Part shown: one piece after another, positions 226 to 10,650 of the stretch
How the letters are laid out: each line of letters opens with the position of its first letter
Position numbering within the stretch: position 1 is the stretch's first letter
Source of the DNA: an uncultured Faecalibacterium sp.
Lineage (GTDB): Bacteria; Bacillota; Clostridia; Oscillospirales; Ruminococcaceae
Reading direction: 5' to 3'
DNA length: 10,727 bases
Assembly: GCA_934540955.1 (NCBI GenBank)
Contig: CAKTCY010000064.1
Span: forward strand, 1-10,727
The notes under the pieces: generated by a model
What the model was told of the DNA's origin: nothing
Databases searched by the model: none
Seen by the model: only the letters and a program-made list of their open reading frames with translations
Made by a program: the position numbers and the translations under genes

Positions 226-260
226 ATGCGCTCCGCTTTGCTTTGCGCATCAATAGCGGA
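226..260 (+). repeat. 35-base interleaved inverted-repeat element, copy 1 (tig 3' UTR)
   Basis: Two inverted repeats are interleaved. ATGCGC (226-231) pairs with GCGCAT (245-250), and TCCGCT (232-237) pairs with AGCGGA (255-260). The second pair starts inside the loop of the first, so the RNA would form either a pseudoknot or two mutually exclusive hairpins. The same 35-base layout recurs at 3436-3470. Both copies are followed by AAA, an AT-rich linker and a + strand terminator. Copy 1 begins 17 bases after the tig stop codon. The linker between the two stems is short (4 bases), so switching between hairpins may be easier than a simultaneous pseudoknot. I do not recognise a named RNA family here. 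Confidence 0.6.
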
Positions 261-278
261 AAAATCCTTTAAATTTCG

Positions 279-318
279 GGACACCGGAGCGTCTGCGGAC
301 GCTCCGGTGTCCTTTTTT
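279..318 (+). terminator. Rho-independent terminator of tig
   Basis: A perfect 15-bp stem (279-293 with 298-312) is closed by a TGCG loop on a C-G pair, giving C(UGCG)G, a UNCG-type tetraloop. Six Ts follow at 313-318. It lies 70 bases after the tig stop, with the 35-base element between them. Confidence 0.93.
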
Positions 319-955: not shown

Positions 956-3298
956 TCAGAACACCGCCACGGCGACCAGACGCACCAGCAGGGCACACAG
1001 CCATGCCACGGCGCACTGGTTGACCACCATGATGGTGGCCCACTTGCCGCCAAGCTCCCGCTTGACCGAGGCCACTGCCGCGATGCAGGGGGTGTACAGC
1101 AGGCAGAACACCAGCAGCGGTGCGGCCTGTGCCGGGGTGAGGGCTGCGGTCAGGGCTGCGGTGGAGCCGAAGAGGATGAGCAGCGAGGACACCACGCTCT
1201 CCTTGGCCATAAAGCCGGTGATGAGGGCGGTGGAGATGCGCCAGTCCGCAAAGCCCAGCGGGGCAAACAGCGGGGCGATATCGCCCGCGATGCGTGCCAG
1301 AATGCTGGCCTGCGGGTCGGCGGTCAGCGACAGCTGCAAGTCAAAGTTCTGCAGGAACCAGATGACGATAGTGGCGGCAAAGATGACCGTAAAAGCCTTC
1401 TGCAAGAAGTCCCGTGCCTTTTCCCACAGCAGCTGCGCCACGTTTTTCAGGCCGGGCAGGCGGTAGTTGGGCAGCTCCATGACAAAGGGCACGGCCTCGC
1501 CCTTGAACACGGTGCTCTTGAGCAGCAGTGCCGCCAGCACGCCCACCACGATGCCGGTAAAGTACAGCAGCACCATCACAAGGCCCGCATACTGCGGGAA
1601 GAACGCCGCCGCAAACAGGCTGTAGATGGGCAGCTTTGCCGAGCAGCTCATGAACGGGGTGAGCAGGATGGTCATTTTGCGGTCGCGCTCCGAGGGCAGG
1701 GTGCGGCTTGCCATGACGCCGGGCACCGTGCAGCCAAAGCCGATGAGCATGGGCACGATGCTGCGGCCGGAAAGGCCGATGCGGCGCAGCAGCTTATCCA
1801 TCACAAAGGCCACACGGGCCATGTAACCGGTATCCTCCAGCATGGAGAGGAAGAAGAACAGCACCACGATGATGGGCAGAAAGCTCAGCACGCTGCCCAC
1901 GCCGGTAAAGATGCCGTCGATGACCAGCGAGTGCACCGCCGCGTTGACGTTCCAGCTGGTCAGGGCGGTGTCCACAACGCCGGTCAGGGCGTCGATGCCC
2001 ATCTCCATGAGGTTCTGGAAGAACAGGCCGATGACATTGAAGGTAAGGAAGAACACCAGACCCATGATGGCGATAAACGCCGGGATGGCGGTGTACTTGC
2101 CGGTAAGGAACTTATCAATGCGGTTGGAGCGCAGCTGCTCCTTGCTTTCGTGGGGCTTGACCACCGTCTGCGCCACCAGCTCCTGAATAAAGGAGAAGCG
2201 CATATCCGCAATGGCGGCGGCGCGGTCCAGCCCGCGCTCCTGCTCCATCTGCACGATGATGTGCTCGATCATTTCTTTTTCGTTCTGGTCCAGCTTCAAC
2301 GCTTCCTCAATGCGGGGGTCGCCCTCCACCAGCTTGGTGGCGGCGAACCGCACCGGGATGCCCGCCGCCTTGGCGTGATCCTCGATGAGGTGCTGGATGC
2401 CGTGGATGCAGCGGTGCACCGCGCCGCCGTGGTCGTCCTCGCTGCAAAAATCCATGCGCCCGGGGCGCTCCTGATACTTTGCCACATGGACGGCGTGGTC
2501 TACCAGTTCGTCCACGCCCTCGTTCTTGGCGGCGGAAATGGGGATGACCGGGATGCCCAGCATAGCCTCCATCTTGTTGATGCGTACCGTGCCGCCGTTG
2601 CCGCGCATTTCGTCCATCATGTTCAGCGCCAGCACCATGGGGATGTCCAGCTCCATCAGCTGCATGGTCAGGTAGAGGTTGCGCTCGATGTTGGTGGCAT
2701 CCACGATATTGATGATGCCGGTGGGCTTTTCGCCGATGATGAACTGCCGGGTGACGATCTCCTCGCTGGAATAGGGGGACATGGAGTAGATGCCCGGCAG
2801 GTCGGTGACCTCGGTCTCCGGGTGACCCTTGATGGCACCGCTCTTGCGGTCCACCGTCACGCCCGGAAAGTTGCCCACGTGCTGGTTGGAGCCGGTGAGC
2901 TGGTTGAACAGGGTGGTCTTGCCGCAGTTCTGGTTGCCCGCCAGTGCAAAGGTCAGGGTCTTATCCTCCGGCAGGGGATGCTCCCCCTCCTTGGTGTGGT
3001 ACTTGCCGCCCTCGCCAAGACCCGGGTGCTCCACCATTTTTCCGTCCACCGGGGCGTGCACCGCCGGGGTCTTTTCGGTGGGGGTCACGGTGATCTGTGC
3101 CGCGTCGTCCAGACGCAGGGTCAGCTCATAGCCGTGGATGCGCAGCTCCATGGGGTCGCCCATGGGTGCCAGCTTTACCAGCGTGACCTCTGCCCCGGGG
3201 ATCAGACCCATATCCAGAAAATGCTGCCGCAGTGCGCCTGCACCGCCCACTGCATCCACTATGGCGCTTTTGCCGATCTGTAACTCTTTTAACGTCAT
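956..3298 (-). CDS. feoB: Ferrous iron transporter, FeoA-FeoB fusion
   Basis: This 780-residue protein joins two Feo components that are separate in E. coli and imports Fe(II) across the cytoplasmic membrane. Residues 1-75 form a FeoA SH3-like domain (LGLIPG-type turn at 30-35, then APMGDPMELRIHGYEL). A linker of about 40 residues follows. The G domain shows G1 GNQNCGKT (121-128), G2 around PGVTVD (145-150), G3 DLPG (166-169), G4 NMMD (226-229) and a G5-like SAAKNEG (255-261). The membrane part starts near 400 and contains the gate motifs GFGCTVPGVMASR (520-532, with C523) and PFMSCSAKLPIYSLFAAAFF (548-567). Later helices include GFMAKESVVSSLLILF (695-710) and the C-terminal LLYTPC segment (733-738). 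Nothing essential is missing. The ATG has AAGAAGG nine bases upstream (3308-3314). It has its own promoter with overlapping dyads and its own terminator. Only the metal-dependent control is inferred. Confidence 0.96.
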   Translation of the reverse strand: MTLKELQIGKSAIVDAVGGAGALRQHFLDMGLIPGAEVTLVKLAPMGDPMELRIHGYELTLRLDDAAQITVTPTEKTPAVHAPVDGKMVEHPGLGEGGKYHTKEGEHPLPEDKTLTFALAGNQNCGKTTLFNQLTGSNQHVGNFPGVTVDRKSGAIKGHPETEVTDLPGIYSMSPYSSEEIVTRQFIIGEKPTGIINIVDATNIERNLYLTMQLMELDIPMVLALNMMDEMRGNGGTVRINKMEAMLGIPVIPISAAKNEGVDELVDHAVHVAKYQERPGRMDFCSEDDHGGAVHRCIHGIQHLIEDHAKAAGIPVRFAATKLVEGDPRIEEALKLDQNEKEMIEHIIVQMEQERGLDRAAAIADMRFSFIQELVAQTVVKPHESKEQLRSNRIDKFLTGKYTAIPAFIAIMGLVFFLTFNVIGLFFQNLMEMGIDALTGVVDTALTSWNVNAAVHSLVIDGIFTGVGSVLSFLPIIVVLFFFLSMLEDTGYMARVAFVMDKLLRRIGLSGRSIVPMLIGFGCTVPGVMASRTLPSERDRKMTILLTPFMSCSAKLPIYSLFAAAFFPQYAGLVMVLLYFTGIVVGVLAALLLKSTVFKGEAVPFVMELPNYRLPGLKNVAQLLWEKARDFLQKAFTVIFAATIVIWFLQNFDLQLSLTADPQASILARIAGDIAPLFAPLGFADWRISTALITGFMAKESVVSSLLILFGSTAALTAALTPAQAAPLLVFCLLYTPCIAAVASVKRELGGKWATIMVVNQCAVAWLCALLVRLVAVAVF

Positions 3299-3385: not shown

Positions 3386-3435
3386 TAGAGAATATGGGGG
3401 AGTTGCTTGCAGATTTCCGGGTGGGACGATTCAAA

Positions 3436-3470
3436 ATGCCCTCCGTTACACTCTGGGCATATTCAGCGGA
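3436..3470 (+). repeat. 35-base interleaved inverted-repeat element, copy 2 (orphan)
   Basis: This has the same design as 226-260. ATGCCC (3436-3441) pairs with GGGCAT (3455-3460), and TCCGTT (3442-3447) pairs with AGCGGA (3465-3470) with one G-T pair. Relative to copy 1, the fifth pair of the first stem changes from G-C to C-G on both sides, while the loop bases differ freely. Total length and every internal spacing are identical. The + strand terminator begins 17 bases later, as for copy 1. No + strand gene precedes it in the window, so it may belong to a small stand-alone RNA or be a mobile repeat. Confidence 0.6.
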
Positions 3471-3487
3471 AAGATTATTTTTATTTT

Positions 3488-3526
3488 GCGTTTGTCGCGC
3501 TCTGCGGAGCGCTCCAAACGCTTTTT
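3488..3526 (+). terminator. Rho-independent terminator on the + strand with no upstream gene
   Basis: GCGTTTG (3488-3494) pairs with CAAACGC (3515-3521) and GCGCTC (3497-3502) with GAGCGC (3507-3512), separated by a two-base internal loop on each side. The TGCG loop sits on a C-G pair, and TTTTT follows at 3522-3526. The T-tract shows + strand polarity. Both flanking genes, feoAB and galE, are on the minus strand, so this terminator implies a + strand transcript of unknown origin. Confidence 0.8.
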
Positions 3527-3601: not shown

Positions 3602-4627
3602 TTACTTCACGGTGTGGTAGCCGTCGGGGTTGTTCTTCTGCCAGTTCCAGCTGTCGGCGCACATCTCCTCGATGCCGTACTCAGCCACCCAGCCAAGCTC
3701 GTTCTTGGCCTTGGTGGGGTCTGCGTAGCACTCCGCGATATCGCCGGGGCGGCGATCCTCGATGACGTAGGGGATCTCCTTGCCGCAGGCCTTGGAGAAG
3801 GCGTGGATGACATCCAGCACGCTGTAACCCTTGCCGGTGCCCAGATTGCAGATGAAGAGGCCGCAGCCGGTCTCCAGCTTGCGGATGGCGCACACATGGC
3901 CCCGGGCCAGATCCACAACGTGGATGTAGTCACGCACACCGGTGCCGTCCGGGGTGGGGTAGTCGTTGCCAAAGACGTGCACCTTTTCCAGCTTGCCCAC
4001 AGCCACCTTGGCGATGTAGGGCATCAGGTTATTGGGGATGCCGTTGGGGTCCTCGCCGATCAGGCCGCTCTTGTGGGCACCGATGGGGTTGAAGTAGCGC
4101 AGCAGCGCCACATTCAGGCTGGGATCTGCCTTGCAGACGTCCTGCAGGATGCGCTCGGTGAAGGCCTTGGTGGTGCCGTAGGGGTTGGTGGTAGCGCCCA
4201 CGGGGAAGTCCTCGGTGATGGGCACGGTGGCGGGGTCGCCGTAGACGGTAGCGGAGGAGCTGAACACGAAGTTATGGCAGTCATGATGGCGCATCACGTC
4301 CAGAATGACCAGCGTGCAGTTGAGGTTATTATAGTAGTACTCGATGGGCTTGGACACACTCTCGCCCACAGCCTTGTAGGCTGCAAACTGGATGACTGCG
4401 GTGATGTCCGGGCACTCGGAGAAGATCTTCTCCACGTCCTCGTGACGGGTCATATCTGCATTATAGAAGCGGAAGTCCTTGCCGGTGATCTGCTTGACCC
4501 GGTCCAGAACCACAGGAGAAGCATTATAATAGTTATCTGCCACCACGATATCGTAGCCAGCGTTCAACAGCTCGATGCAGGTGTGGCTGCCGATGTAGCC
4601 GGCACCGCCGGAAACCAAAATTGCCAT
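3602..4627 (-). CDS. galE: UDP-glucose 4-epimerase
   Basis: This 341-residue short-chain dehydrogenase family enzyme interconverts UDP-galactose and UDP-glucose with bound NAD in the cytoplasm, the last step of the Leloir pathway. It also supplies UDP-galactose for glycans. The Rossmann fold opens with GGAGYIG (7-13). SSSATVYG (123-130) holds the catalytic serine, and YGTTK (150-154) gives the Tyr150/Lys154 pair. NNL (100-102) and RYFNPIGAH (177-185) are further family landmarks. RRPGDIAECYADPTKA (292-306) is the sugar-binding C-terminal segment. In it, Cys300 occupies the position of E. coli Tyr299, the residue that restricts E. coli GalE to UDP-Gal/Glc; human GALE has Cys there and also accepts N-acetyl sugars. 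A GAGAGG-type ribosome binding site lies nine bases before the ATG. It is a single-gene unit, separated from galM by a terminator. Length is normal for the family (about 338). Confidence 0.96.
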   Translation of the reverse strand: MAILVSGGAGYIGSHTCIELLNAGYDIVVADNYYNASPVVLDRVKQITGKDFRFYNADMTRHEDVEKIFSECPDITAVIQFAAYKAVGESVSKPIEYYYNNLNCTLVILDVMRHHDCHNFVFSSSATVYGDPATVPITEDFPVGATTNPYGTTKAFTERILQDVCKADPSLNVALLRYFNPIGAHKSGLIGEDPNGIPNNLMPYIAKVAVGKLEKVHVFGNDYPTPDGTGVRDYIHVVDLARGHVCAIRKLETGCGLFICNLGTGKGYSVLDVIHAFSKACGKEIPYVIEDRRPGDIAECYADPTKAKNELGWVAEYGIEEMCADSWNWQKNNPDGYHTVK

Positions 4628-6168: not shown

Positions 6169-6208
6169 AAAAAGCGCCCCGCACTTCCGGTGGAAGTGCG
6201 GGGCGCTT
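6169..6208 (-). terminator. Rho-independent terminator of the RND gene
   Basis: A perfect 17-bp stem (6172-6188 with 6192-6208) closes a three-base loop. The minus-strand tail begins TTTTTGG. It lies 23 bases after the stop codon of the large transporter and upstream of the galM promoter. Confidence 0.92.
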
Positions 6209-6230
6209 GGGTGATACAGGCTGGTACGCC

Positions 6231-9200
6231 TTATGCCTCCGGCTGAGGCTGTGCCGCAGAGGACTGGGCGGCAATGAACTCGGCGGCATCGTCCGGGATG
6301 TCGTCCAAGTCCTCATCGCTGCCGACGTCCACGTTGAGCGGCGGCTTCTTGAACAGGATATCGTACAGGATGGGCACGATATACAGGGTCATCAGGGTGG
6401 CGTAGCTCAGGCCGCAGATGATGACGATGGCCATGCCGCTCATCAGCTGGCTTGCCATATCGTTGCTGAACACCATTTGCAGCATGGCCAGCACGGTGGT
6501 CAGGGTGGTCATCAGGATGGGGCGCATACGGGTCTTGCCGGTGGCCACCAGCGCGGCGCGGCGCTCCATGCCGCCGATGCGCAGCTGGTTGGCGTAGTCC
6601 ACGAACACGATGCCGTTGTTGACGACCGTACCCATCAGCACGATGAAGCCCATCATGGAGATCATGGTCAGCTGCTGGCCGGTGAGCAGCAGGCCCAGCA
6701 GACCGCCGGTAAAGGCCAGCGGCACGGTGAACAGCACGATGAAGGGGGACAGCAGGCTCTGGAACTGTGCCACCATGACAAGGTACACAAAGGGCAGGGC
6801 CAGTGCCATCCACTGGATCATCTCATCGGCCATATAGTTCACGCTGTCGCTCTCGCCGCCCATGGAGAAGGAGCAGCCCTCCGGCATCTCGTCGGTAAGG
6901 GCGAAGGCATCCAGCGCCTTTTTCACTGCACGCGCCTGCACCGTGGTATTGTAGCCCGGGGCAGTCTCGGCGGTAACGGTAACGTACTGGTTCCGGTTCT
7001 CGCTGGTGATGGAGTCCGGTGTGGTGCCGGTGGTCCAGCTGGCGATATCTGCCAGCGTGCAGGTGCCGGTGGCGGTGGTGCCGTCCGCAGACATGACGGT
7101 GGTCTCAAAGGTCATATCCATCATGTTTTCCTTGGTCAGCGGGTCCAGATTGTTGCTGATCTGCACATCCATGGTGGTGCCGTCCACAGTAACGGGGGTC
7201 TGCGCCGTGGTGGTAGTGGTCAGCTTTGCCGCGATCTGCTGGTACACCTGCGCAACGGTCAGGCCGTAGGCGCGCACCTTGTCGCGGTCCACCTGCAAAA
7301 TAATGGTGGAATCACCTGCGCCCAGACCGTTGGTGGCGTTCTGGAAGCCCTCAGTGCTGTTCACGATGTCCACGACCTTCTCGGACAGGGCGGTCAGGGT
7401 CTCGGCATCAGTGCCGTAGACCTTGATGGTCAGGCCGGTGACCAGCTGGCTGGTCAGGTCGTCGGTCATGCCGTACTGCTGGACGGTGGCGGTGCAGTCC
7501 GCAACACCGGCCACGGCTTCCTCCATGGCCTTGCAGGCGGCATCGATCTTGGAGGAGGAGAACTCCTCGTTGAGCTTGACGTTGATCTTGTATCTGCCGT
7601 AGCCGTTGGCGGCGTTCAGCAGGTCGGTGATGGTGGAGGGCAGGCCAAGGTTGGAAATATCCATGCCCGCCACGGTGTTGTCGGGGGTAATGCCTACCTC
7701 CTCCACGCCGTCCACGGTCATCACGGCCTGTACCACCTTACCGGCTACATCATAGGATTCCTGCTGCGAGAGGGTGTCGGTGGTGGAAAGGGTGATCATG
7801 GCCTCGTTGCTGGTGCTGGTGGGCAGCAGCTCGATGCCCATGGAGAACACCCGCCAGCCGCAGAACACCAGCAGCAGCACGGCGGCAGCCAGCGGCACAA
7901 AGCGCTTTTCCAGCGCCTTTTCCAGACTGCGGCCGTAGGCGTCCTGAATTTTATCGAACCACGCCAGCTTTTTGGGCTGGGCATTCTTCAGCACGGTAGC
8001 CGAGGCGGCAGGCACCACGGTAAGTGCCACGATGAGGGAGGCCATCAGGCAGTAGCCGATGCACAGGGACATGGGGCCCATCAGGCTGCGGATCATGCTG
8101 GCAGAGAACACCGCCGGCAGGAACACGCACACCGAGGTAAGGGTAGAGGCCACAACAGACATACCCACCTGACGCGCGCCCTGCACCGCAGCGCGGGCGG
8201 CGGGCACGCCGCGGCCGCGCAGACGGTAGACGTTCTCGATGACAACGACAGAGTTATCCACCAGCATACCGATGCCCAGCGAAAGGCCGGCCAGCGTCAT
8301 GACGTTCAGGTCCAGCCCGGTAAAGTACATCAGCACCACGGCAAACAGCACCGACAGGGGGATACTGACGCCGACCACCAGCGTGGGCTTGACGTCCTTC
8401 AGGAAGATGGCCAGCACGATGATGGCCAGTGCGGCACCCACCAGCATACTGGTGAGGATGCTCTTGATGAGGATGCTGATGTAGTTGCCCTGATTGGACA
8501 GCACCACAATGTGCAGACCCTCGTACTGGGCCTCCAGCTCCTTGAAGGCATCCAGACAGTTGGCAGATACCTCACCTGCGCTGGAGCTGTCATCCTTGTA
8601 GATCTTCAGCACCGAGGCCTGCTCGCCGTTCAGGCGGGTATAGCTGTCGGCGGCGTTGTCGATGACCTCCACGTCTGCCACGTCGGAAAGGCGCACGTCG
8701 CCGTAGCCCTCCACATGGAGCAGCAGTGCACCGCGGATATCCTCCACGCTGTCGTATTCCTCGCCCACCTTCAGCAGCCACGAACTGCCGTCCTTATCCT
8801 TGACGTAACCGGCGGGCATGGAGAAGTTCTGGGCGTAGATCAGGGTGGAAAGGGTATTGATATCCAATTGCTTAGCCACATCGGCGCTGGCAAGCGCCTT
8901 TTCCTTGGCGGCCTCGTACTGGGTCTTGGCCTCGCTGAGCTGCTTTTCGTACTCGTTCAGCATCTCGCGTGCCTCGGTAAACTGCATATAGGCAGCCAGC
9001 TGCTGCTGGGTAAAGCTGCCCAGTGCCTTGGAGAACTCGCCCATCATGCCGGGCACGTTGTCCATAGCCTTGATGGTGTCATCCAGCGTATTATAGATGA
9101 CGTTCAGGCTGTCCTGCAGCTGCAGCTCGTCCGCCAGATCTGCAGCGCCCTCGCCCTGCGTGCCGGTCTCGGTGTTGATGCGGTGCTGCAGGGTCTGCAA

Positions 9201-10175
9201 AGCACTGGAAAGCTTATCGGTGATGCTGCGCAGCTCGGACACGATCTCGATCAGGGAGTCGATATCCCGCATACCGGTGTTGTTGAACTTATCCAGCACA
9301 CGCTGCAAGCCGGCCTGCACCTCGACGAGAGCTTGCTGCACCTCGGGCTCCTTGACCACGGCAATCAGGTTGTTGACGCTTTGCAGCAGCGCCTCGGCCT
9401 GCTTGCGCACCACCTCTACGGCATTCCCGACCTCAGAGGACAAGGTGCCCATGACAGAGTTGGACACGGTGTTGCCGAAGTTTTTAAACTGCTTATCGTA
9501 TTCTGCGCGGCCGGCCTCGATCTTGGCCTCGGCCTCCTCCAGCTGGGCGTGCGCCACCTCCAGCTGGGTGTCGATAAGCTCCATCAGCCTTTCGTTGATG
9601 GCATCCACCTTTGCCTGATTCAGCTGCACCTGCACCAGCTGCTCCACAAGGCCGCTGGCAGACACGCTGGACACGCCGCCCTTGCGCTGGACGTAGGGGG
9701 TCATGGTGTTCTTGATAAAATCAGAAAGGTCGTACACCGAGCTGCCCTCGCGGCTGACAGCCACGGTCATAAAGGCGTTCATGTTCATGCTGTACTGCAC
9801 GATAGAGGGAGTCAGCGCCGTTTCCGGCAGGTCGCTCTTGGCCTGATCCAGCTTGTTGGACACCTGCACCAGTGCGCTGTCCATATCCGTGTCATCCACG
9901 AACTCCATCAGCAGCAGGCTGTAGTTTTCGGCCGAGGTGGCGGTGATCTTTGAAACACCGGGCACCGTAAGCGCATTTTGCAGCACGTCCGAGACCTCGG
10001 TCTCCACACGCTCCGGGCTGGCACCGGGATACACGGTGACCACCATCAGATACGGTGTGCTGACGTTCGGCAGCAGGTTGGTCTTCATCTTGGTGATCGA
10101 CACAAAGCCGAGCATCAGCACCATGATGACTGCAACCAGCACCGTAAATGGTTTTTTGACACTGAATTTTTCCAT
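6231..10175 (-). CDS. RND-family (AcrB/HAE1-like) efflux transporter with extracellular coiled-coil insertion
   Basis: This 1314-residue integral membrane protein is about 250 longer than AcrB or SwrC. The RND layout is clear: TM1 (8-29), a long loop (30-566), TM2-TM6 (about 567-589, 597-618, 622-646, 672-692, 702-725), TM7 (759-777), a second loop (778-1120) and TM8-TM12 (about 1121-1270). The TM4 proton-relay segment is GMLVDNSVVVIENVYR, where D640 matches AcrB D407 and N641 stands at D408; TM10 has VVNNGIVFVDY (1184-1194), as in many HAE1-type proteins. The extra length is in the first loop, about residues 195-437: charged heptad-like helices at both ends (195-230, 385-436) around further amphipathic helices. 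The equivalent point in the second loop (DRDKVRAYGLT, 963-973) has no insert. The C-terminus is acidic then Ala/Gln/Pro-rich. GGTAGG lies a few bases before the ATG. No adaptor or outer-membrane gene is adjacent. The substrate is unknown; drug, lipid or peptide export are all possible. Confidence 0.93.
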   Translation of the reverse strand: MEKFSVKKPFTVLVAVIMVLMLGFVSITKMKTNLLPNVSTPYLMVVTVYPGASPERVETEVSDVLQNALTVPGVSKITATSAENYSLLLMEFVDDTDMDSALVQVSNKLDQAKSDLPETALTPSIVQYSMNMNAFMTVAVSREGSSVYDLSDFIKNTMTPYVQRKGGVSSVSASGLVEQLVQVQLNQAKVDAINERLMELIDTQLEVAHAQLEEAEAKIEAGRAEYDKQFKNFGNTVSNSVMGTLSSEVGNAVEVVRKQAEALLQSVNNLIAVVKEPEVQQALVEVQAGLQRVLDKFNNTGMRDIDSLIEIVSELRSITDKLSSALQTLQHRINTETGTQGEGAADLADELQLQDSLNVIYNTLDDTIKAMDNVPGMMGEFSKALGSFTQQQLAAYMQFTEAREMLNEYEKQLSEAKTQYEAAKEKALASADVAKQLDINTLSTLIYAQNFSMPAGYVKDKDGSSWLLKVGEEYDSVEDIRGALLLHVEGYGDVRLSDVADVEVIDNAADSYTRLNGEQASVLKIYKDDSSSAGEVSANCLDAFKELEAQYEGLHIVVLSNQGNYISILIKSILTSMLVGAALAIIVLAIFLKDVKPTLVVGVSIPLSVLFAVVLMYFTGLDLNVMTLAGLSLGIGMLVDNSVVVIENVYRLRGRGVPAARAAVQGARQVGMSVVASTLTSVCVFLPAVFSASMIRSLMGPMSLCIGYCLMASLIVALTVVPAASATVLKNAQPKKLAWFDKIQDAYGRSLEKALEKRFVPLAAAVLLLVFCGWRVFSMGIELLPTSTSNEAMITLSTTDTLSQQESYDVAGKVVQAVMTVDGVEEVGITPDNTVAGMDISNLGLPSTITDLLNAANGYGRYKINVKLNEEFSSSKIDAACKAMEEAVAGVADCTATVQQYGMTDDLTSQLVTGLTIKVYGTDAETLTALSEKVVDIVNSTEGFQNATNGLGAGDSTIILQVDRDKVRAYGLTVAQVYQQIAAKLTTTTTAQTPVTVDGTTMDVQISNNLDPLTKENMMDMTFETTVMSADGTTATGTCTLADIASWTTGTTPDSITSENRNQYVTVTAETAPGYNTTVQARAVKKALDAFALTDEMPEGCSFSMGGESDSVNYMADEMIQWMALALPFVYLVMVAQFQSLLSPFIVLFTVPLAFTGGLLGLLLTGQQLTMISMMGFIVLMGTVVNNGIVFVDYANQLRIGGMERRAALVATGKTRMRPILMTTLTTVLAMLQMVFSNDMASQLMSGMAIVIICGLSYATLMTLYIVPILYDILFKKPPLNVDVGSDEDLDDIPDDAAEFIAAQSSAAQPQPEA

Positions 10176-10283: not shown

Positions 10284-10465
10284 TAGCAGGGCGGCGAATC
10301 TTTTGCGAAAGTTCTGTCAAAATCTGCAAAACGCACAGCCTTTCCGCCCCAAAACCGGCATTCCGTCTGCCTTCCTCCCTTCTGCCGCCGGACAGAATTC
10401 CGACACTTTTTTCCATACTGCATACGGTTGAGCCGGGGGAATCATTGCAGGGGAGGGAAAATTTT
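10284..10465. other. Noncoding stretch with no supported feature
   Basis: Between the RND promoter and the first palindromic repeat I see no gene with a ribosome binding site or a recognisable product. A GAGGGA segment (10453-10458) is the inverted complement of the start of repeat A (TCCCTC at 10468-10473), so part of this stretch may be a decayed repeat unit. Confidence 0.5.
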
Positions 10466-10518
10466 ACTCCCTCAGTCAAAACCTGACGGTTTTGCCAGCT
10501 CCCTCGGGGAGGGAAGTT
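10466..10518 (+). repeat. Two-hairpin palindromic repeat, unit A
   Basis: The unit begins ACTCCCTCAGTCA. Stem 1 is CAAAACC/GGTTTTG (10477-10483 with 10488-10494) around TGAC. TGCCAG follows, then stem 2 CTCCC/GGGAG (10499-10503 with 10507-10511) around TCG. It aligns with units B and C but is the most diverged, with a shorter second stem. Confidence 0.75.
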
Positions 10519-10520
10519 TA

Positions 10521-10573
10521 ACCCTCTCAGTCACGGCTTACGCCGTGCCAGCTCCCCCGAAGGGGGAGCTTTT
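10521..10573 (+). repeat. Two-hairpin palindromic repeat, unit B
   Basis: The unit begins ACCCTCTCAGTCA. Stem 1 is CACGGC/GCCGTG (10532-10537 with 10542-10547) around TTAC. Stem 2 is a perfect 9-bp AGCTCCCCC/GGGGGAGCT (10550-10558 with 10562-10570) around GAA. TTTT follows, so stem 2 could also act as a weak + strand terminator. It starts 55 bases after unit A in the same direction. Confidence 0.85.
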
Positions 10574-10596
10574 CGCCATCTGCCGATAAGTAGAGC

Positions 10597-10650
10597 AAAA
10601 CCTCCCCCTTTCGGGGGAGGTGGCATCGCGCAGCGATGACGGAGAGGGTT
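10597..10650 (-). repeat. Two-hairpin palindromic repeat, unit C (inverted)
   Basis: Read on the minus strand it begins ACCCTCTCCGTCA, like unit B. Stem 1 is CATCGC/GCGATG (10624-10629 with 10633-10638). Stem 2 is a 9-bp ACCTCCCCC/GGGGGAGGT (10600-10608 with 10613-10621), followed on the minus strand by TTTT. It faces unit B tail to tail, 23 bases away, so B plus C form a larger inverted repeat. Confidence 0.85.

Follow-up and report, generated by a model that had tools for sequence, protein, structure and literature searches.

Two short stretches of the window, the 10,727-nucleotide piece of Faecalibacterium DNA analyzed here, share the same arrangement of inverted repeats, and each stands in front of a terminator-like hairpin. 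What kind of element is this, and is it an RNA device of the neighboring gene or something that has spread?

Two arms in the window

The first-pass annotation described two interleaved 6-bp inverted repeats at positions 226 to 260, and both stems are indeed there. Stem 1 (S1) is made of ATGCGC at 226-231 and GCGCAT at 245-250, and stem 2 (S2) of TCCGCT at 232-237 and AGCGGA at 255-260. The same architecture was said to recur at 3436 to 3470. We find S1 there as ATGCCC (3436-3441) and GGGCAT (3455-3460) and S2 as TCCGTT (3442-3447) and AGCGGA (3465-3470), with every stem and loop length equal to that of the first copy. Such a recurrence is far from chance: a loose pattern of the 35-mer has two matches in the window, while 200 dinucleotide shuffles averaged 0.01 matches and never produced as many as two. 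Both 35-mers are followed by a 17-nt linker and then by a plus-strand hairpin capped with C(UGCG)G and ending in a T-run, which agrees with the UNCG-capped terminators proposed earlier. What the annotation overlooked is an inner 2-bp stem, a swap inside the S1 loop (a U-A pair in copy 2 is a C-G pair in copy 1), and conservation well beyond the 35-mer, from GACGATT, which begins 11 nt upstream of S1, to TTTTCAC after the terminator hairpin.

We call the complete unit, of about 110 nt, an arm. Its parts, in order, are GACGATT, the core hairpin, AGCGGAAA, an AT-rich linker, the terminator hairpin and TTTTCACGGGAGGGGTCG, beyond which conservation fades; upstream of the outer block, no base exceeds about 55% among the aligned arms. 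Arm 1, on the plus strand, opens with the conserved outer block GACGGTTTGGA at 215-225 (GACGATTTRRA in the family). Its core hairpin (226-250) consists of S1, a 3x3 internal loop (232-234/242-244) and the inner stem (235-236/240-241), and two-sided changes are seen in S1 and in the inner pair corresponding to 236-240. The AGCGGA block at 255-260, the 3′ side of S2, is conserved and complementary to 232-237, with pairing unsupported. The AT-rich linker (261-277) directly precedes the terminator at 278-318, which by folding is a C(UGCG)G hairpin at 278-313 with 16 pairs, one of them G-U, and a T-run at 313-318. The conserved inner block starts with TTTTCACGG at 315-323, and no second arm follows it here.

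Arm 2, also on the plus strand, has its conserved outer block GACGATTCAAA at 3425-3435, its core hairpin at 3436-3460 with the inner stem at 3445-3446/3450-3451 (the U-A variant; two-sided changes again), and the conserved AGCGGA block, likewise with pairing unsupported, at 3465-3470. The fold of its terminator (3488-3526) comprises a hairpin at 3488-3521, with 15 positions and two mismatches, and a T-run at 3522-3526. In its S2, the U-G pair at T3446 is accompanied by an A at 3450.

The gene before arm 1 reads, by eye, like the end of tig. Around the arms, minus-strand family matches are MarR (383-817), a fused FeoA-FeoB (956-3298) and an NAD-dependent epimerase (3602-4627, galE-like by name only), and further ones are aldose epimerase and AcrB-type families. 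The FeoA and FeoB domains at 956-3298 are fused in a single 780-amino-acid protein. Arm 1 lies behind the tig-like gene and has a near-perfect terminator, whereas arm 2 is antisense to both neighboring genes and has a 2x2 mismatch in its terminator stem. The tig site carries one arm in the window and two arms each in L070 (CP094467) and in genome G020. Just past arm 1, at 335-367, there is a second hairpin, with a CCGCAG loop, that resembles the terminator of the L070 arm at the same tig site. Two other features of the window deserve mention. An open reading frame of 1,248 amino acids (6207-9953) runs antisense to the AcrB-type gene and is probably a by-product of codon bias. The interval 10439-10650 is also repeat-like but of another kind (CCCTCAGTC...CTCCC / GGGGGAGGTGGCATCGCGCAGCGATGACGGAGAGGG); it contains long inverted repeats, and stretches similar to it adjoin arms in other genomes.

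Copy number, distribution and placement

We scanned one genome per species, 84,980 species in all, for the pattern. The scan returned 103 loci, 98 of them from five Faecalibacterium assemblies; the other five, judged by their flanks, were dropped as chance matches. A model, R1, built from 74 non-redundant copies then matched at least 68, 111, 83, 95 and 89 times in the five source genomes. Among 31 Faecalibacterium genomes, R1 found at least 68 to 134 arms each in eight, one arm in two and none in 21, all of these being lower bounds, since no more than 150 candidates were scored in any one genome. The eight arm-rich genomes are those whose FeoB is 95 to 99% identical to that of the window; the next six stand at 86%. 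A matrix scan of 400 kb of G017, one of the sister-group genomes at 86%, found no arms. L299, in the sister-group genome G018, is a single diverged copy, seemingly two-armed and, by eye, behind a stop codon; its 6-kb surroundings had no match in the DNA compared from the arm-rich clade. At the family level, under stricter filters and with the best 17 candidates per genome, at least 2 of 297 matched, G001 itself and G018, which makes a weak negative. A relaxed descriptor gave 763 matches, mostly chance, and these were left out of the counts. In a pattern scan of viral contigs, only L008 and L014 of 17 loci held real arms, as judged by flanks; both lie near contig ends and are probably host DNA. 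Six further loci from a second viral-contig scan (L018-L023) were left out.

The annotation did not recognize the element, and neither does Rfam: across 4,227 families there was no match at gathering score for either arm, and a permissive scan gave six weak matches, none overlapping an arm. Among the matches listed in open-licence literature there was no Faecalibacterium paper on such a repeat. The suspicion that the motif is a recurring unit is borne out, since further copies exist, about 100 dispersed in each arm-rich genome, and the covariation of S1 and the link to terminators hold in them. The unit is not particular to tig; that copy is one of about 100 with the features of a mobile element.

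Arms occur as 31 inverted, tail-to-tail pairs and as 148 singles. In the pairs, 86 to 523 nt separate the cores, and the two-armed elements span about 220 to 660 bp. For all 146 classified elements, any overlap with a called gene is at most 40 nt, with genes called by a codon-usage script rather than a standard gene finder. In the 790 kb of G020 that remained after removal of arm-rich blocks, arms occupied 12 of 45 convergent gaps, 12 of 161 tandem gaps and 2 of 57 divergent gaps (P = 0.0002 for convergent). In a sample chosen for holding arms, inverted pairs fell into 16 convergent, 10 tandem and one divergent gap, and classified singles, sorted by the strands of the upstream and downstream genes relative to the arm, numbered 47 (+,-), 44 (-,-), 24 (+,+) and 4 (-,+). 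Where an arm follows a same-strand gene in the 790 kb of G020, it starts within 30 nt of the stop codon in 15 of 21 cases. Purifying selection alone could explain the enrichment of arms behind genes.

The arms themselves receive other repeats. Eight distinct arms (L068, L079, L081, L083, L088, L187, L203 and L280) hold a second repeat of about 115 nt (CGGGTTGCGGC...GTCGTCGTTG) within the apical loop of their core hairpin, and all have S1 paired at 6 of 6 positions, where the search required at least 5 of 6. In L040, L056 and L068, other repeats appear, by eye, to be inserted in the terminator hairpin. Both hairpins therefore serve as insertion sites. REPs are also described as targets of other insertions in the available part of PMC1525189.

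REPs and REPINs, according to the accessible portion of PMC3116915, are extragenic, imperfect hairpin units of high copy number that occur as singlets and inverted doublets and show compensatory differences. The arm family resembles REPs, BIMEs and REPINs in its imperfect hairpins, singlets and inverted doublets, compensatory differences, extragenic sites and about 100 copies per genome. The arms might accordingly be repeats of the REP/REPIN type that depend on a RAYT (Y1 tyrosine transposase) for their movement, with the two-armed form mobile and the singles its remnants. We searched 18 of the 31 Faecalibacterium genomes for the enzyme. Y1_Tnp (PF01797) matches were present in six of the eight arm-rich genomes, as such a mechanism would predict; however, G020, with at least 134 arms, and G030, with at least 86, had no match. 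With no consistent link to arms in the 18 genomes, the Y1 transposase was set aside as the mobilizer. The arms also depart from REPs in form. They measure about 110 nt, against 20 to 60 for REPs in the same portion of PMC3116915, lack a GTAG tag at the hairpin foot, and bear a U-tailed terminator of their own, a part absent from the REP descriptions in the available text of PMC3116915, PMC3733652 and PMC12306157; in the last of these, RepRanger separates T-tailed hairpins from REPs. We consider a RAYT-driven REPIN improbable. Facing arms 600 to 6,000 nt apart occur eight times in 2.4 Mb. Five genes in four of these intervals were scanned and contained no recognized transposase; they match a symporter, an aminotransferase, a hydrolase and an AcrB-type pump, and one protein is unmatched.

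Pairing, transcription and alleles

The first-pass annotation saw in the changes between the two copies what selection on pairing would leave, and called the evidence thin. In the 74-row alignment, S1 and the inner 2-bp stem together have four pairs with two-sided change and 54 such cells, and 99.7% of cells are paired. In the percentage paired, the count of two-sided cells and the covariation score, the alignment beat all 500 shuffles; its count of two-sided pairs was reached in 27 shuffles and that of pair types in 424. S2 had no two-sided change in this alignment. Because the search patterns had fixed parts of both stems in the 74 rows, we recounted on 241 distinct arms from a matrix scan, which itself still favors the core motif. 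Here, S1 has two-sided changes at five of its six pairs and 22 of 1,446 cells unpaired, and the inner pair is C-G in 224 arms, U-A in 11 and unpaired in five. S2, on the other hand, has 74 of 1,205 cells unpaired and only two cells with two-sided change. Cells count copies rather than events, and there are about nine fully Watson-Crick types of S1. In copy 2, the inner pair is preserved by the very base that weakens S2. The pairing of S1 is supported and that of S2 is not, so the claim stands for the first stem only; AGCGGA and TCCGC may be conserved for a reason other than pairing.

The interleaved stems had been taken as a possible pseudoknot or switch. With covariation in S1 and none to support S2, that structure is unsupported as well. 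An RNA regulatory element in 3′ untranslated regions, controlling the terminator or mRNA stability through two competing folds, would fit with both stems being complementary in the 74 aligned copies (partly forced by the search pattern), with the S2 fold being the more stable in 43 of 172 copies (the S1 fold is better in 122), and with the short distance from stop codons noted in G020. It is hard to reconcile with about 100 copies per genome beside unrelated genes, or with the 48 of 119 classified singles that have no same-strand upstream gene, a setting in which the core nevertheless stays intact. Moreover, terminator stems vary so freely that no pairing between core and terminator can be conserved. 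We regard such a switch as very unlikely.

The terminator hairpins tell a different story from the core. A C(UGCG)G-type stem, with UGCG or a near variant, is present in 182 of the 241 arms, and 138 of these stems are 16 bp long. The 182 hairpins include 110 distinct ones, and yet 2,871 of their 2,887 pairs are Watson-Crick, the rest being 11 G-U, three A-C and two others. The excess of G-U over A-C (11 to 3, P = 0.057) lends weak support to a role in RNA. The 790 kb of G020 contain 55 perfect hairpins of at least 14 bp with 4-nt loops, 34 of them with TGCG or CGCA loops; 400 kb of G017 contain five such hairpins, all with other loops. We then classed 164 of the 241 arms, those with an upstream gene within 300 nt, by the strand of that gene; the other 77 were not classed. 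Behind same-strand genes, 94 of 112 arms have an intact terminator stem, versus 32 of 52 behind opposite-strand genes (P = 0.0026). For full pairing of S1, the corresponding counts are 106 of 112 and 49 of 52 (P = 1), the weaker half of this test, as the scan requires the core motif and so partly fixes the S1 result. The two parts thus come apart: terminators are best preserved in arms that are transcribed, and the core is preserved everywhere. The two arms of the window fit this contrast. In its terminator half, the arm behaves like a component of an RNA, and the core hairpin, equally intact in either orientation, points to a role at the DNA level. Both arms in the window have the layout of an intrinsic terminator, a GC-rich hairpin and a U-run on the same strand, and from sequence and context we predict that arms act as transcription stops.

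At many sites, an arm present in one strain is missing from another. Counting overlapping loci, 81 comparisons covering 56 of 273 arms turned up an armless aligned counterpart, with both flanks at least 93% identical in 55 of the 81. Arm 2 is an example: nothing in the galE-feoAB gap of G020 (L188/L157) corresponds to the segment 3396-3544, and the arm is also missing from that gap in G003 (L159). At 22 inspected junctions, overlaps and gaps vary, with overlaps of up to 10 nt and no clean target duplication. Several of the "empty" alleles retain GACGATTTAAAAT-like or TTTTCACGGG scars of the element and are therefore deletions rather than virgin sites. Many arms begin a few nucleotides past a stop codon, where the first terminator behind a gene would be, but arms absent from the same gap in close strains, a sequence common to unrelated loci, a clade-restricted burst and inverted pairs leave native terminators with a conserved leader, vertically inherited and immobile, as a very unlikely explanation.

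Where two alleles both carry an arm, the hairpins need not agree. We compared 84 allelic pairs from 47 sites. The two alleles have different S1 stems in 22 pairs and different terminators in 16 of the 53 pairs that were testable; these 53 include 10 pairs in which only S1 differs, 11 in which only the terminator does and five in which both do. A closer comparison took in 48 allelic pairs of terminator stems, with a mean flank identity of 95.7%. Thirty-four are identical and one has a single difference, and the remaining 13, at 10 sites, differ at 5 to 13 of 16 positions. This bimodal distribution means that hairpins are replaced whole, as blocks. The annotation had read the changes between copies as a trace of selection on pairing; where alleles could be checked, such changes are not stepwise compensation. 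In eight of the 13 divergent pairs, the stem of one allele is found elsewhere in its own genome, although in five of these eight it is the commonest stem of all, for which a donor is easy to find. We also asked whether equal arms are avoided within a single element: the two arms have the same S1 in 10 of 32 cases (7.6 expected) and the same terminator stem in none of 22. As the mechanism of replacement, we infer ectopic conversion or replacement insertion. A bolder proposal, which we hold only tentatively and think more apt to be wrong than right, is that the arms amount to a pool of terminators that evolve as exchangeable cassettes through hairpin-specific recombination. Whole core hairpins and 16-bp terminator stems would be exchanged independently among about 100 loci, and transcription ends would be reshuffled between strains of this clade, with pairing staying perfect.

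A fold-back repeat and similar systems

Taken together, these data favor, with a probability of about 75%, a dispersed, non-coding, fold-back repeat of the MITE/REP-like kind that has expanded in one Faecalibacterium clade, would be mobilized in trans, and is predicted to supply terminators behind genes. The full element would be two inverted arms flanking a variable center, and single arms, the commoner form, are probably remnants. A separate enzyme would move it, or have moved it, in trans. The core hairpin, S1 plus inner stem, is kept whatever the direction of transcription and is probably the structure recognized in the DNA during mobility. Terminators are most often intact in arms that follow a same-strand gene, so that an insertion would provide that gene with a transcription stop. 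Hairpins are exchanged between copies as whole blocks, as seen in the alleles, presumably by one of the two routes named above.

A puzzling motif with two copies thus turns out to belong to a family with many copies in one of the major commensals of the human gut. The family differs between strains and probably sets transcription ends behind many genes. Perfectly paired stems with almost no intermediates between them, at allelic sites whose flanks are about 95% identical, indicate that these hairpins evolve by block replacement rather than stepwise compensation. This is also a warning that covariation in repeats is not proof of RNA function.

Among known systems, REPs with a CGTC tag are one point of comparison. 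In the available part of PMC3733652, these have no dedicated transposase, form dimers and have A-T type pairs at the first two stem positions, and the five phyla named for them exclude Firmicutes. The arms likewise form dimers and begin their stem with two pairs of A-T type, no transposase could be tied to them in the searches above, and the reverse complement of an arm ends in AAATCGTC. However, REPs have a GTAG or CGTC tag directly at the hairpin foot; in the arms, GACG stands 7 nt away from the foot and flanks the opposite side of the hairpin, and the 6-bp stem comes with an internal loop.

Bacterial MITEs, such as EFAR in Enterococcus, RUP, NEMIS and ERIC, are another. Like these, as far as they are described in the available text of PMC3733652, the arms are short, non-coding and gene-adjacent, with terminal inverted repeats and strong RNA folds. 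The arm family is short, non-coding, dispersed and extragenic throughout, and has the terminal inverted repeats in its 31 pairs. Its terminal repeats are about 110 nt long versus 15 to 30, its two-armed elements span about 220 to 660 bp versus 70 to 300 bp in the same text, and its host is a different genus. No parent insertion sequence was found in the eight facing pairs, with five genes scanned, and the terminator stems vary strongly and are exchanged in blocks. Like the arms, EFAR repeats have terminators close to stop codons. The arms are a new family within the known kind of bacterial miniature or palindromic repeats, one with terminators in its arms.
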